Part shown: piece after piece, positions 15,036 to 37,041 of the stretch | How the letters are laid out: the number at the start of each line of letters is the position of its first letter | Position numbering within the stretch: the first letter of the stretch is position 1 | Notes under the pieces: model-generated | Database searches by the model: none | The model's input: the letters and a program-made list of their open reading frames with translations, nothing else | What the model was told of the DNA's origin: nothing | Source: Natronohydrobacter sp. | GTDB lineage: Bacteria > Pseudomonadota > Alphaproteobacteria > Rhodobacterales > Rhodobacteraceae | Assembly (NCBI GenBank): GCA_030603695.1 | Contig: JAUVXF010000021.1 | Location: 1 to 48,119 of the forward strand | DNA: 48,119 bases | Direction: 5' to 3' | Made by a program: the position numbers and the translations under genes

Positions 15036-16181
15036 TTAAAGTGCGGCGCGCTCTGTCTGATAGGCCCAGTCCAGCCAGCCCATCAGCGCCTCTATATCGG
15101 CGGTCTCTACTGTCGCGCCGCACCAGATGCGCAACCCGGCCGGGGCATCGCGATAAGCGCCGATATCGAAGGCCACGCCTTCGGTTTCCAACCGTTTGGC
15201 CACGGCTTTCGCAAAGGCCGCGCCATCGGTGATGGCGGGATCGGTGAATTTCAGACAGACAGAGGTGGTCGAGGCCGTGGCGGGATCTTCTGCCAGATTT
15301 GCAATCCAGTCATGCGCCGCACAGAAACGGGCAATTACAGCGGCATTGGCATCGCAGCGCGCGATCAGCGCAGGCAGGCCGCCAATCTCGCGCGCCCAAT
15401 CCAGCGCCAGAAGGTAATCTTCCACGGCCAGCATGGAGGGGGTGTTGATCGTCTCACCCTTGAAGATACCCTCAATCAGCTTGCCGCCCTTTGTCATGCG
15501 GAAAATCTTGGGCATGGGCCAAGGGGGGATATAGCTTTCCAGCCGTTCCACTGCGCGGGGCGACAGGATCAGCATGCCATGCGCGGCCTCGCCGCCCATC
15601 ACCTTTTGCCAGGAGAAGGTGACAACATCCAGCTTGTCCCAAGGCAAATCCATCGCAAAGGCCGCCGAAGTGGCATCGCAAATTGTCAGGCCCGCGCGAT
15701 TGGCCGGGATCATATCGCCATGCGGCATGCGCACGCCCGATGTCGTGCCATTCCATGTGAACACAACATCTGTGTCATAATCAATCGCGGCCATATCAAC
15801 AATCTGGCCATACTCTGCCTTGCGCACATCTGCATCAAGCTTCAACTGCTTTACGGCATCTGTAACCCAGCCTTCGCCAAAGCTTTCCCAGGCCACCATC
15901 GTTACCTTGCGCGGCCCAAGAAGTGACCACATGGCCATTTCCACCGCGCCAGTATCCGATGCCGGAACAATCCCGATCCGGTAGCCTTCCGGCACGCCCA
16001 GAATCTCTGCTGTGCCATCAATCGCGGCTTTCAGCTTGTTCTTGCCAATGGCCGCGCGGTGCGAGCGGCCCAAGGGCGCATCCGCAAGCTGATCAAGGCT
16101 GAATGTGGGGATTTTGGCACAAGGGCCAGAAGAAAAGCGCGGATTTGCCGGGCGCTGTGCCGGTTGTGCAGGTATAGTCAT
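15036..16181 (-). CDS. serC: phosphoserine aminotransferase
   Basis: A 381-aa class V PLP enzyme that converts 3-phosphohydroxypyruvate and glutamate to phosphoserine. It matches the alphaproteobacterial type: [11 protein letters not shown] opening, LGRSHR near residue 37, the Schiff-base lysine in [14 protein letters not shown] and [14 protein letters not shown] later. The start at 16181 is supported by GGAAGG about 5 nt upstream. It is the first gene of a probable serC-serA operon, divergent from serB, so all three serine-pathway genes share one regulatory region. Confidence 0.96.
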
Positions 16182-16201
16182 GATATCCTTCCAGATCATC
16201 G

Positions 16202-16227
16202 CCCTTCGTTGGGGAAGGGTGTCCCAA
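16202..16227 (-). promoter_or_regulatory. structured serC mRNA leader with alternative hairpins
   Basis: In the serC leader CCCTTC (16219-16214) pairs with GAAGGG (16207-16202) around loop CCCAAC. TTGGG (16227-16223) just upstream can pair with CCCAA in that loop, either as a competing hairpin or as a tight pseudoknot. The element ends 20 nt before the serC ATG. A conserved serC leader motif has been predicted in alphaproteobacteria; whether this is the same motif is not verified. Confidence 0.45.
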
Positions 16228-16232
16228 GAGCG

Positions 16233-32120: not shown

Positions 32121-34502
32121 ATGAGTGATTTCAACACCGATCTTCCGCTATCCGCCCGCGCCATGGCCGCGCGTCCTGCGCCCTATCTGGACGGGCTGAA
32201 CCCCGCGCAGCGACAGGCCGTAGAGGCGCTGGATGGCCCTGTCCTGATGCTGGCAGGCGCAGGCACAGGCAAGACCAAGGCGCTTACCGCGCGGATTGCG
32301 CATTTGCTGAACACGGGCCGCGCCTATCCGTCTGGCGTTCTGGCTGTCACCTTCACCAACAAGGCCGCGCGCGAGATGAAATTGCGCCTTAGTGGCTATC
32401 TGGGCGAGGTGGTGGAAGGCATGCCATGGCTGGGCACATTCCATTCCATCAGCGCCAAATTGCTGCGCCGCCATGCCGAATTGGTGGGGCTGAAATCCAA
32501 TTTCACGATTTTGGACAGTGACGACCAGTTGCGCTTGCTCAAGCAACTGATTGTCGCCGCCAATATGGATGAAAAGCGCTGGCCCGCGCGGCTGCTGGCC
32601 TCTGTCATCGATCAGTGGAAAAACCGCGCATGGCGTCCCGATCAGGTGCCCAGTGCAGAGGCCAGCGCCTTCAACAATCGCGGGACAGAACTTTATGCCG
32701 CGTATCAGGAACGGCTTAAAACCCTCAATGCCTGCGATTTCGGGGATTTGCTGCTGCATTGCGTGACCATCTTTCAGGCGCATCCTGATGTGCTGCACGC
32801 CTATCAGGCGCGGTTTCGGTATATTCTGGTGGATGAGTATCAAGATACGAATGTGGCACAGTATCTGTGGCTGCGGCTCTTGGCCGAAGGGCATAAGAAT
32901 ATCTGCTGCGTGGGGGATGATGACCAATCCATCTATGGCTGGCGCGGGGCAGAGGTGGGAAATATCCTGCGATTCGAGCGCGATTTCCCCGGCGCCGTAG
33001 TGGTGCGGCTGGAGCAGAATTACCGATCAACCCCGCATATTCTGGCCGCGGCCTCTGGCGTGATTGCGGGCAATGCCGACCGTCTGGGCAAGACATTGTG
33101 GACAGAGGCGCGCGAGGGCGAGAAAATCCGCCTGATTGGCCATTGGGATGGCGAGGAAGAGGCCCGCTGGATTGGCGAGCAGATCGAAGACCTAAGCCGC
33201 GGCACGCGCGGCCTGATCCCGTTCAGCCTGAACCAGATGGCGATTCTGGTGCGTGCCAGCCATCAGATGCGCGCCTTCGAGGATCGTTTTCTGACTATCG
33301 GCTTGCCTTACCGCGTGATTGGTGGCCCGCGCTTTTATGAACGGATGGAAATTCGTGATGCGCTGGCCTATTTCCGGCTGGCTGTCAGCCCTGCCGACGA
33401 TCTGGCCTTCGAGCGGATTGTGAACACCCCCAAGCGCGGTTTGGGCGAAAAGGCGCAACAGACCATCCAGAACATTGCACGCGCAAAGGATGTGTCACTG
33501 GTGCAGGGCGCGGCACTTGCGATCGAGGCGGGCGCGATCAAGGGCAAAGGCGCGGCCGCGCTGCGCGAGCTGATCGAGGGGATTGCCCGCTGGCACCAGC
33601 GCGCGCGCAGCGCCGGGCTGTCAGTGACGGGCGATGATGATCTGATAGAGGTGATCGGCCAAGAGGCGGGCGCGAGCGACCATATCGAACTGGCCGAGCA
33701 GATTTTGGAAGAATCGGGCTATACCGAGATGTGGCTTGCCGACAAGACACCAGAGGCGCCGGGGCGGCTGGAAAACCTGAAGGAATTGATCAAGGCGCTG
33801 GAAAACTTCGAGAATCTGCAAGGGTTTTTGGAACATATCGCGCTGATCATGGAGAATGACAGCGATACGGGCGAGGCCAAGGTTTCCATCATGACGCTGC
33901 ACGGGGCCAAGGGCTTGGAATTTCCGGTGGTGTTCCTGCCGGGTTGGGAAGAGGGGTTGTTTCCATCCCAGCGCTCCATGGACGAATCGGGGGTGAAAGG
34001 GCTGGAGGAAGAGCGCCGCCTTGCCTATGTGGGCATCACCCGCGCCGAACAGCTCTGCACCATCAGCTTTGCCGCCAATCGGCGCGTTTATGGGCAATGG
34101 CAATCGCAAATGCCCTCGCGCTTTGTCGATGAATTGCCAAGCGCCCATGTAGAGGTTCTGACCCCGCCGGGGCTGTATGGTGGCGGTGTGGCCGTGGCAA
34201 GCAGCATTGAAAGCCGGGCAGAGCGTGCGGATGTCTATAATTCGCCGGGATGGCGGCGCTTGCAAGCGGCCTCTGCCCGCCCGCTTGTCCAACCGCGAGA
34301 GGCGCGAAATACGGTGATAGACGCAAACGCCCTTCCCGCATTCGAGCTGGGGGACAGGGTGTTTCACCAAAAATTCGGCTATGGCCGCGTGGCTGCGGTG
34401 GAAGGGGACAAGCTGTTTGTGGAGTTTGAAAAATCCGGCTCCAAGCATCTGGTTGCCAAATTTGTGGTTCCCGCAGATCAGGCGGATGACGTGCCGTTCT
34501 AG
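32121..34502 (+). CDS. uvrD: UvrD/PcrA-type ATP-dependent DNA helicase
   Basis: A 793-aa superfamily 1A 3'-5' helicase for nucleotide excision and mismatch repair. The Q motif LNPAQRQAV is followed by Walker A GAGTGKT with Lys51, motif Ia TFTNKAAREM, Walker B VDEYQDTN, motif III VGDDDQSIYGWRGA, motif IV LEQNYRS, motif V TLHGAKGLEF and motif VI VGITRAE. The C-terminal 50 residues (FELGDRVFHQKFGYGRVAAVEGDKL) form the PcrA/UvrD barrel that contacts RNA polymerase. The ATG at 32121 is preferred to the TTG at 32115. A LexA box lies upstream. Confidence 0.95.
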   Translation: MSDFNTDLPLSARAMAARPAPYLDGLNPAQRQAVEALDGPVLMLAGAGTGKTKALTARIAHLLNTGRAYPSGVLAVTFTNKAAREMKLRLSGYLGEVVEGMPWLGTFHSISAKLLRRHAELVGLKSNFTILDSDDQLRLLKQLIVAANMDEKRWPARLLASVIDQWKNRAWRPDQVPSAEASAFNNRGTELYAAYQERLKTLNACDFGDLLLHCVTIFQAHPDVLHAYQARFRYILVDEYQDTNVAQYLWLRLLAEGHKNICCVGDDDQSIYGWRGAEVGNILRFERDFPGAVVVRLEQNYRSTPHILAAASGVIAGNADRLGKTLWTEAREGEKIRLIGHWDGEEEARWIGEQIEDLSRGTRGLIPFSLNQMAILVRASHQMRAFEDRFLTIGLPYRVIGGPRFYERMEIRDALAYFRLAVSPADDLAFERIVNTPKRGLGEKAQQTIQNIARAKDVSLVQGAALAIEAGAIKGKGAAALRELIEGIARWHQRARSAGLSVTGDDDLIEVIGQEAGASDHIELAEQILEESGYTEMWLADKTPEAPGRLENLKELIKALENFENLQGFLEHIALIMENDSDTGEAKVSIMTLHGAKGLEFPVVFLPGWEEGLFPSQRSMDESGVKGLEEERRLAYVGITRAEQLCTISFAANRRVYGQWQSQMPSRFVDELPSAHVEVLTPPGLYGGGVAVASSIESRAERADVYNSPGWRRLQAASARPLVQPREARNTVIDANALPAFELGDRVFHQKFGYGRVAAVEGDKLFVEFEKSGSKHLVAKFVVPADQADDVPF

Positions 34503-34528
34503 TATCCGGCTTGATCAAGCCGGATACT
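34501..34528. terminator. 28-nt perfect palindrome at the uvrD stop codon
   Basis: AGTATCCGGCTTGA and its exact complement TCAAGCCGGATACT meet without a spacer and include the last two bases of the uvrD stop. As RNA it forms a stable hairpin at the very end of the message, so it probably protects or terminates it. A protein-binding site is the alternative. Confidence 0.5.
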
Positions 34529-34554
34529 CTGAGCACAGGGTTTTGCACCAACAC

Positions 34555-34585
34555 AAAAGGCCATGGCAGTTTGCCTGGCCTTTTT
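34555..34585. terminator. bidirectional Rho-independent terminator (sRNA array and uvrD)
   Basis: Arms AAAAGGCC-GGCA and TGCC-GGCCTTTT with a small internal loop and a GTT apex. On the plus strand it is followed by five T and fits uvrD. On the minus strand it ends in CCTTTTGTG and closes the DUF1127-sRNA transcript, 35 nt after the last motif hairpin. Confidence 0.75.
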
Positions 34586-34618
34586 AGTCTGCCGCATGAT
34601 CGCCCTGAAAGTGAAAAA

Positions 34619-34695
34619 GGCGGTAGTCCCAGGGAGGAGGAGGGGACTACCGCCAAATTTGCAAGACCCCAGGGAGGAGGAGGGGGCCTTTGCAA
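34619..34695 (-). ncRNA. Cuckoo/CcsR-type sRNA, unit 3 of the array
   Basis: Two adjacent stem-loops. The first on the minus strand, at 34695-34659, has an 8-bp stem AAGGCCCC / GGGGTCTT including one G-U pair, extended more weakly by TTGCAA repeats. The second, at 34654-34619, has a perfect 12-bp stem GGCGGTAGTCCC / GGGACTACCGCC. Both expose the 12-nt loop CTCCTCCTCCCT. The loop resembles the anti-Shine-Dalgarno end of 16S rRNA. By analogy with CcsR RNAs of Rhodobacter sphaeroides it should act on mRNAs by base pairing and be processed from the DUF1127 transcript. Confidence 0.8.
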
Positions 34696-34700
34696 GACCT

Positions 34701-34714
34701 CGGCCCGAAGGCCG
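34701..34714 (-). other. UUCG-tetraloop spacer hairpin between sRNA units 2 and 3
   Basis: On the minus strand CGGCC-TTCG-GGCCG forms a 5-bp stem capped by a C(UUCG)G tetraloop, an exceptionally stable fold. It lacks the CCTCCTCCC motif. It probably marks the 3' boundary of unit 2 or blocks exonucleases during processing. Confidence 0.55.
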
Positions 34715-34722
34715 GTATTCAC

Positions 34723-34798
34723 GGAACGAATGCGCCAGGGAGGAGGACGGCCCATTCGTTCCAACATGCGCCCCAAGGGAGGAGGAGTGGGGCAGCAT
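34723..34798 (-). ncRNA. Cuckoo/CcsR-type sRNA, unit 2 of the array
   Basis: Two stem-loops with unrelated stems and the same loop. The first, at 34798-34766, has a stem ATGC-GCCCCA / TGGGGC-GCAT with one bulged base and loop CTCCTCCTCCCT. The second, at 34762-34723, has GGAACGAATG / CATTCGTTCC plus GCC / GGC, with one mismatch, and loop GTCCTCCTCCCT. Stem sequences differ from units 1 and 3 while the loop is conserved, so selection appears to act on the loop and on pairing as such. Confidence 0.8.
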
Positions 34799-34803
34799 CT
34801 TAA

Positions 34804-34832
34804 TCCGGTTTCAAGCTTGCGCCTTGGCCGGA
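34804..34832 (-). other. motif-free spacer hairpin between sRNA units 1 and 2
   Basis: TCCGG / CCGGA outer arms with inner CAAG / CTTG on the minus strand form an imperfect hairpin without the loop motif. It occupies the same relative place as the UUCG hairpin between units 2 and 3. Confidence 0.4.
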
Positions 34833-34840
34833 ATTTGTGG

Positions 34841-34908
34841 CGGTGACCGAGGGAGGAGGAGCGGCCACCGTCGCAATCGGGCCTCCAGGGAGGAGGAGAG
34901 AGGCCCGA
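34841..34908 (-). ncRNA. Cuckoo/CcsR-type sRNA, unit 1 of the array
   Basis: Starts 7 nt after the DUF1127 stop. The first stem-loop (34908-34877) has a perfect 9-bp stem TCGGGCCTC / GAGGCCCGA and loop TCTCCTCCTCCCTG. The second (34870-34841) pairs CGGTGGCCG with CGGTCACCG around CTCCTCCTCCCT. Its single irregular pair is G-U on the minus strand but A-C on the plus strand, which supports minus-strand transcription. The proximity to the gene suggests the sRNAs are cut from the same transcript. Confidence 0.8.
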
Positions 34909-34915
34909 AATCTTG

Positions 34916-35128
34916 TTACTTTCCGTAAGCGGCCTCATAGGCAAGGCGCGAGATCATCGAGCGCGAAATGCCCAGATCATCCAATTCGCGTGTGCTCAGT
35001 TGGCTCAGCTCTGCGTAGGTGCGCTTGAAAACACGGCGGCGAGCCAACATGTCAGACACCCGGCGCACCAATGCGCCAAAGCCGCCATCACCGTGAACGA
35101 TCCGTGCGTTATCTGCTATATGTGCCAT
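34916..35128 (-). CDS. DUF1127 small arginine-rich protein (CcaF1-like)
   Basis: A 70-aa basic protein whose C-terminal 45 residues match DUF1127: RRRVFKRTYAELSQLSTRELDDLGISRSMI. In Rhodobacter sphaeroides the DUF1127 protein CcaF1 is encoded just upstream of the CcsR sRNAs and binds RNA, affecting their maturation. The same neighbourhood here makes an equivalent role likely (inference). The start at 35128 has AAGGTAGAG upstream. It is longer than the minimal 45-50 aa DUF1127 proteins. A candidate stress-type promoter lies about 50-75 nt upstream. Confidence 0.88.
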   Translation of the reverse strand: MAHIADNARIVHGDGGFGALVRRVSDMLARRRVFKRTYAELSQLSTRELDDLGISRSMISRLAYEAAYGK

Positions 35129-35178
35129 CGTTACTCTACCTTGTCTGTGTCGCGGTATGTTTCCCGCTGTTGAGAGGA

Positions 35179-35205
35179 AGATAGCAGTTTGCTGCGCCTG
35201 CACAA
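35179..35205 (-). promoter_or_regulatory. candidate RpoH-type promoter of the DUF1127-sRNA transcript
   Basis: On the minus strand TTGTGC (35205-35200) and CTATCT (35184-35179, as TGCTATCT) have sigma-32-like spacing of 13 nt to the octamer. In R. sphaeroides the homologous locus is under RpoHI/RpoHII. The -35 element keeps only TTG, so the match is partial. Further upstream at 35228-35242 lies ATGCGCC-A-GGCGCAT, a small palindrome of unknown role. Confidence 0.4.
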
Positions 35206-35264
35206 TGCTTGATGCTGCAATGCGGCTATGCGCCAGGCGCATGTTTACCTTAGGTAATTTTGTA

Positions 35265-37005: not shown

Positions 37006-37041
37006 AAATGTGCCATGAGGTTTCATGGCACATTTTTTTTT
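37006..37041 (+). terminator. strong Rho-independent terminator of mrp
   Basis: A perfect 13-bp stem AAATGTGCCATGA / TCATGGCACATTT with loop GGTT, followed by a total of nine T, 25 nt after the mrp stop. Confidence 0.92.

Follow-up and report, generated by a model that had tools for sequence, protein, structure and literature searches.

A hairpin array of probable CcsR-type small RNAs behind a DUF1127 gene in Natronohydrobacter sp., with a possible PhaR site at its promoter

The DUF1127 gene and the six-hairpin array

The window, that is, the whole stretch of Natronohydrobacter sp. DNA that was analysed, is 48,119 bases long. Its minus strand carries six stem-loops at 34619–34908, in the order in which they would be read behind a gene for a short DUF1127 protein. 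The initial annotation had pointed to the CcsR sRNAs of R. sphaeroides, which carry this motif behind a DUF1127 gene, and PF06568 matches the gene found here. The best named relative of this protein, with 89% identity over the protein, is encoded in a Roseinatronobacter MAG locus, which places the window close to Roseinatronobacter. The locus is flanked by HIT-domain and Mrp-like genes in one direction and by a UvrD-like gene in the other. Behind the Mrp-like gene and before mraZ, a terminator-like hairpin of 13 pairs with a T-tract is present at 37006–37035 of the plus strand; shuffles yield 1.0 site of this type. The window also contains a serC leader (RF00517, 58.1 bits) at 16178–16229 of the minus strand. 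The features of the array and its gene are as follows.

34916–35128, minus strand: DUF1127 (CcaF1-like) gene, 70 aa (PF06568, 1.3e-13)
34877–34908, minus strand: hairpin 1, first of pair 1 (fold, arm shuffles)
34841–34870, minus strand: hairpin 2, second of pair 1 (fold, arm shuffles)
34835–34912, minus strand: probable CcsR-type sRNA unit 1 (RF02791, 30.4 bits)
34804–34832, minus strand: separator hairpin S1, motif-free (fold, alignment A1)
34766–34798, minus strand: hairpin 3, first of pair 2 (fold, arm shuffles)
34723–34762, minus strand: hairpin 4, second of pair 2 (fold, arm shuffles)
34721–34804, minus strand: probable CcsR-type sRNA unit 2 (RF02791, 31.4 bits)
34701–34714, minus strand: separator hairpin S2, motif-free (fold, alignment A1)
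34659–34695, minus strand: hairpin 5, first of pair 3 (fold, arm shuffles)
34614–34654, minus strand: hairpin 6 with T-tract, second of pair 3, terminator shape (fold, covariation)
34615–34698, minus strand: probable CcsR-type sRNA unit 3 (RF02791, 50.3 bits)

The array is real and exceeds chance expectation. As first described, the six minus-strand loops share an 11-nt core, the 11-mer TCCTCCTCCCT being present in 6/6 loops, and the six stems all differ from one another. The motif CCTCCTCCC has six copies in the window, every one of them on the minus strand (34632–34896); dinucleotide shuffles predict 0.27 copies, and none of 100 shuffles contained as many as six. The 2.95-Mb genome contains ten copies, six of them in the array, and eight copies of the reversed motif. 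At three other places in the same genome (C2, C28 and C29) no clear hairpin loop was found around CCTCCTCCC. The motif-to-motif spacing in the array is 37, 74, 39, 66 and 40, so that the hairpins are grouped as pairs; the loops are closer within pairs (37, 39, 40) than between them (74, 66), in agreement with the earlier description. When the motif is kept unpaired, the folding energies of the six hairpins are −18.3, −16.7, −17.0, −23.3, −16.2 and −24.5 kcal/mol, values that were equalled by 1, 2, 2, 0, 0 and 0 of 300 arm shuffles, respectively. Hairpin 6 is followed by TTTTT, which closes the array with the shape of an intrinsic terminator.

Alignment A1 contains 23 arrays and uses as reference the structure of the window, which is itself one of the rows; this structure is retained in 84.4% of cells. 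Both sides are changed in 45 pairs versus 32.4 (sd 3.0) in shuffles, and doubly changed cells number 151 versus 56.9 in shuffles and 28–53 with a slid structure, where the reference row favours the structure over the slid controls and the kinship of the rows favours it over the shuffles. Hairpin 6, with 12 bp, is paired in 100% of cells across the 23 loci. The weakest helix is hairpin 3 (64.2% of cells paired), in part, as judged by eye, because the aligner shifted some sequences. Swapping of arms between species worsened the folding of all six hairpins; the cost was greatest for hairpin 4 (from −19.7 to −10.0, 452 swaps) and smallest for hairpin 5 (from −14.1 to −11.3, 168 swaps), and the result for hairpin 6 is based on 18 swaps. 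The stems are maintained through compensatory change. Avoidance of cross-pairing was considered as a reason for the different stems and gave no signal (−7.95 within arrays, −8.01 between species).

An addition to the original description are the separator hairpins between the pairs. In A1, the two helices of S1 (helices 3 and 4) are paired in 82.6% and 77.2% of cells, with both sides changed in 5/9 pairs; S2 is paired in 87.8% of cells, with both sides changed in 2/5 pairs. We speculate that S1 and S2 set the units off for cleavage.

Family assignment, copy number and solo copies

The three pairs coincide exactly with the matches of the Rfam CcsR1 model (RF02791), which span model positions 1–83 in every case. 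The matches come from a relaxed search, and none of the three units reaches the gathering score of 65.3, a score that was reached in 8/246 genomes sampled from the family. The covariance-model search that the initial annotation had proposed as a check gives 30.4–50.3 bits on all pairs, below the gathering score, and its assignment of the pairs to three two-hairpin CcsR-type sRNAs is supported by the end-to-end matches. The ar14/NfeR1 model RF02344 gave 46.3 and 40.8 bits, under its gathering score of 58.8. RF02791 was found in 35/37 genomes of the genus at E<=0.02 (2/14 controls) and in 207/246 genomes of the family sample at E<=0.001 (1/14 controls). None of the matches in control genomes is above the cut-off; at E<=1 they occur in 8/14 genomes.

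The array probably represents three two-hairpin CcsR-type small regulatory RNAs. The locus is a cuckoo RNA/CIN1 locus, an already known kind: it has CCUCCUCCC loops, variable stems and a short DUF1127 gene in front. Cuckoo RNAs contain two to four adjacent hairpins each. Loops with CCUCCUCCC on variable stems are described for cuckoo-type RNAs in the excerpted text of PMC10746234.

The suggestion that three pairs could be an unusual copy-number variant did not hold, as exactly six exact motifs were counted in 21 of the 24 closest loci (L001–L024). The exceptions are L004 and L016, with five, and L007, with two, where the contig soon ends. Of 236 homologous DUF1127 loci found, 80 were kept. Up to ten motifs are present in Defluviimonas, Paracoccus, Sedimentimonas, Salipiger and Thioclava loci. 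In 14 loci, mostly from Roseibium/Labrenzia (L052, L053, L055, L057–L059, L062, L063, L065, L066, L070, L073, L077 and L078), a three-motif cluster lies ~450–900 nt upstream of the DUF1127 match, and the same loci also have one or two motifs behind the match.

A solo CcsR copy in the same genome is a further addition to the earlier account. This fourth CcsR-like RNA (L086; contig 7, 262659–262736, minus strand, 22.6 bits) has two hairpins, one loop with CTCCTCCC and one with CCTCCTCCC, followed by a T-tract, and is flanked by a CobB/CobQ-type amidotransferase gene and an HlyD-family gene. A DNA similarity search with this RNA in 40 genomes, including its own, returned the self-match only. Among 14 further places, the two-motif solo copies are L090, L094, L097, L098 and L102. 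One CTCCTCCC each is present at L091–L093, and one at L101, far from the match; L095, L096, L099 and L100 have no CTCCTCCC, and L103 ends at the contig edge.

The predicted promoter, PhaR-like boxes and phaR loci

The upstream region of the DUF1127 gene was compared in alignment A2, which contains 23 upstream regions. The following elements were recognised.

35245–35257, minus strand: palindrome TTACCTAAGGTAA (A2)
35213–35226, minus strand: PhaR-like box GCCGCATTGCAGCA, centre ~−49 from the predicted start (A2)
35190–35205, minus strand: second TGC-N4-GCA dyad TTGTGCAGGCGCAGCA over the −35 element (A2)
35178–35205, minus strand: predicted promoter TTGTGC-N16-TATCTT, conserved across A2

The box and promoter, which go beyond the initial annotation, were found as a single pattern in 20/23 rows of A2, the exceptions being L002, L008 and L017. 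The sequence TTGTGCANNYGCAGCA over the −35 element forms the second TGC-N4-GCA dyad, which PhaR may also use. Several relatives have TTCCC...GGGAA in place of TTACCTAAGGTAA, with both half-sites changed jointly. In rows where both elements, box and −35, could be located at the promoter, they are separated by 9–10 or 17–18 after re-reading by eye (L042 and L171 have 18; the printed value of 2 had a wrong anchor). At L003, L005, L037, L039, L053 and some other loci the best box match lies away from the promoter or is absent, and the box is absent from most Stappia, Roseibium and Hyphomicrobiales loci. By analogy with R. sphaeroides, the promoter is probably driven by a stress sigma factor; excerpts of PMC10253847 and PMC8625941 describe cotranscription with the DUF1127 gene, an RpoHI/RpoHII promoter, a terminator and processing involving RNase E and CcaF1 for the ccaF1-CcsR1-4 operon of that species.

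The consensus reported for PhaR sites is CTGCNNNGCAG in R. sphaeroides and NYGCRNYGCRN in S. meliloti, and efficient binding by PhaR is described for GTTTTCCGCAATGCAGCAATT (SMb20609) (PMC12542648, in part). The core of the box in the window, CCGCATTGCAG, is nearly identical to GTTTTCCGCAATGCAGCAATT; it fits the S. meliloti dyad YGCRNYGCR and has one mismatch to CTGCNNNGCAG. YGCRNYGCR occurs in 20/23 clade upstream regions and exact CTGCNNNGCAG in 8/23, the window having no exact form. The wider-family boxes CTGCATGGCAG and CTGCATAGCAG are one base off the S. meliloti consensus. In a set of 93 loci (18 of 111 were dropped, five without a motif cluster and 13 without a recognised DUF1127 motif), 36 carry exact CTGCNNNGCAG upstream of DUF1127, compared with 7 for the reverse of the pattern and a shuffle expectation of 0.74, and 77 carry CTGCNNNGCAG with one mismatch (32 reversed, 15 expected), counts that are not independent, since the loci are related. 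Specificity is weak at one mismatch, so the strength of the box rests on the exact matches and their position. The genome contains 32 loose boxes, 30 of them elsewhere and most of these overlapping long open frames.

The box recurs at solo copies. At L086 a PhaR-like box precedes the first CTCCTCCC by 72 nt; the same distance was found at L098, and 77 nt at L090, L094, L097 and L102, with one base changed in the boxes of L090 and L097 and with a box pattern that was loosened after inspection of the solo copies, L091–L093 fitting the degenerate form alone. The pattern GCCGCAWTGCAGMA has 78 matches in 34/37 genomes of the genus and none when reversed. A comparison of match lists places 21 of the 78 just upstream of a CcsR match and 57 elsewhere; among the 30 of these 78 places that were fetched, L140 and L141 look like promoters of arrays at the ends of contigs.

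PhaR was detected in the Natronohydrobacter genome (158.4 bits) and in 47/49 genomes searched; being nearly universal, it offers no test by co-occurrence with CcsR. The phaR gene adjoins a phasin gene (Phasin_2, 26.2 bits, cut-off 24.9), a match obtained from an inner start, Pfam giving none from the too-early start; an NCBIfam search of the candidate found no phasin family. Two dyads lie directly before this phasin gene. Across 21 stretches (20 chosen from the 49 genomes and the present one, in which alone the phasin gene was confirmed), an exact dyad occurs before or beside phaR in 20, and the reversed dyad in 0/21. In the same genome, PhaR-like dyads (the L153, L159, L149 set) also occur upstream of two enzyme genes, one of the methylmalonyl-CoA-mutase family and one alanine-dehydrogenase-like, and in the stretch that separates an XRE-cupin regulator from a urtA-like gene.

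PhaR is described as a repressor released by PHB, and as repressing the sRNA MmgR in S. meliloti through a bound promoter site (PMC12542648, in the excerpted text). Control of the array promoter by PhaR through the dyads is a separate and weaker claim than the CcsR assignment; read from the DNA, it is tentative, with a chance a little under one half. The literature search, with the main CcsR studies outside its coverage, found no PhaR–CcsR link and no PhaR–DUF1127 connection in the papers covered, and PhaR is not mentioned in the main text of the CcsR study PMC8307010.

Proposed regulation, alternatives and known systems

We consider the array best explained by CcsR-type sRNAs (probability about 0.8), an account in which transcription, processing and targets are predicted steps. 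A single minus-strand transcript would start from the promoter at ~35178–35205, run through the DUF1127 gene, its proposed first gene, and the six hairpins, and end at the hairpin 6 terminator. Processing would release three two-hairpin CcsR-type sRNAs. Each loop would present the anti-Shine-Dalgarno sequence UCCUCCUCCCU atop its stem; if the stems mainly display the loop, their sequence can drift by compensatory change. By base pairing with ribosome sites of the GGGAGGA type, which often belong to genes for solute-binding proteins, the loops would reduce translation. PhaR, bound at the ~−49 dyad and the −35 dyad, may repress the promoter until PHB granules titrate it, the sign of its action being presumed; titration by PHB could in this way couple carbon storage to uptake. 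That PhaR of the Rhodobacter family generally controls cuckoo/CcsR sRNAs, in the array as in solo copies, by way of dyads placed at fixed distances ahead of the promoter, with PHB build-up leading to shutdown of solute-binding proteins of uptake systems, is a proposal to which we give slightly less than even odds.

The sequence GGGAGGA followed by ATG at 3–9 nt occurs 48 times in the genome, and its reversed form four times. The first 30 of the 48 GGGAGGA genes were compared with all 27 genes that have AAGGAGG, another strong site (three of the 27 frames are shorter than 40 aa), the genes being classed by hand from Pfam names: solute-binding proteins account for 13/30 versus 3/27 (Fisher p 0.0086) and uptake-system parts for 17/30 versus 6/27 (Fisher p 0.014). 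High expression may also account for the enrichment, if abundant proteins tend to have strong ribosome sites. In this genome, GGGAGGA sites (L215–L244) are frequent on TRAP, ABC and TctC solute-binding proteins.

The open frame 34499–34798 (99 aa) reads SSSL at several motifs, and the repeats might be taken for a feature of its protein; since the spacings 37, 74 and 40 are not divisible by three, no single reading frame is kept, and the bases of the array covary as pairs, which makes a protein origin extremely improbable. The hairpins could also be a stabilising 3' UTR or a terminator series of the DUF1127 mRNA that does not act in trans, as their place directly behind the gene and the terminator shape at their end would allow. 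This is very unlikely given the solo two-hairpin copies, where a DUF1127 gene would not fit into the 72 or 77 nt that lie between the box and the first CTCCTCCC, and the constancy of the nine-base loop motif, in rows that were chosen for carrying it. A general translation brake would have the loops mimic the anti-Shine-Dalgarno end of 16S rRNA without any choice of target. The loop does contain CCUCC, the core of the anti-Shine-Dalgarno, and is constant on variable stems, but the genome has few GGGAGGA sites at start codons, 48 in all, with solute-binding proteins over-represented among the genes concerned, and flhR is named as a target of CcsR in R. sphaeroides, according to excerpts of PMC8307010; we regard such a brake as unlikely.

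The alternative that concerns the promoter would leave the sRNAs unchanged: the dyad may be bound by another regulator, e.g. the LysR-type LsrB/VtlR, and PHB would be uninvolved. LsrB/VtlR activates the related NfeR1 and AbcR1, and LsrB is described as activating NfeR1, a CCUCCUCCC sRNA, via TGCA-N6-GCAT (PMC10746234, in part). A box upstream of −35 is in the usual position for an activator, and the −35 elements of the solo copies look poor by eye. Each of the LysR-type boxes GCAT-N3-TG-N3-T and TGCA-N6-GCAT was found in 9/23 clade upstream regions; in the window, TGCA-N7-GCAT comes close to the second of them. Both published boxes are, however, absent from the upstream region of the window, whereas YGCRNYGCR is found in 20/23 upstream regions and dyads of the same type near phaR in 20/21 stretches. 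Since the LysR boxes, absent here, are each present in 9/23 relatives, LysR-type control is kept as a rival, possible though rather doubtful.

CcsR RNAs are known as stress-related RNAs with links to C1 metabolism and pyruvate dehydrogenase. If the PhaR site is true, carbon storage would be a second CcsR input, with one rule for the array and the solo copies. That the loops stay constant while the stems drift and covary suggests that target choice sits in the loop, which makes target rules testable by sequence.

The locus resembles the CcsR1-4/ccaF1 operon of R. sphaeroides, as excerpted in PMC10253847, in having a DUF1127 gene ahead, tandem CcsR units and an end terminator; it differs from CcsR1-4 in having three units rather than four and RF02791 scores below the cut-off. 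With NfeR1/ar14 of rhizobia it shares CCUCCUCCC loops and variable stems (PMC10746234, in part). NfeR1/ar14 is a three-hairpin RNA under LsrB and NtrC, whereas here pairs lie behind a DUF1127 gene. NfeR1, with its CCUCCUCCC loop, silenced two solute-binding protein mRNAs in an S. meliloti reporter assay (PMC10746234, excerpted text). MmgR of Sinorhizobium meliloti offers the likeness of an sRNA with a PhaR site at its promoter, a site that is predicted in the present case. MmgR is a different sRNA from CcsR and, according to the available portion of PMC12542648, is thought to act on phasin expression.
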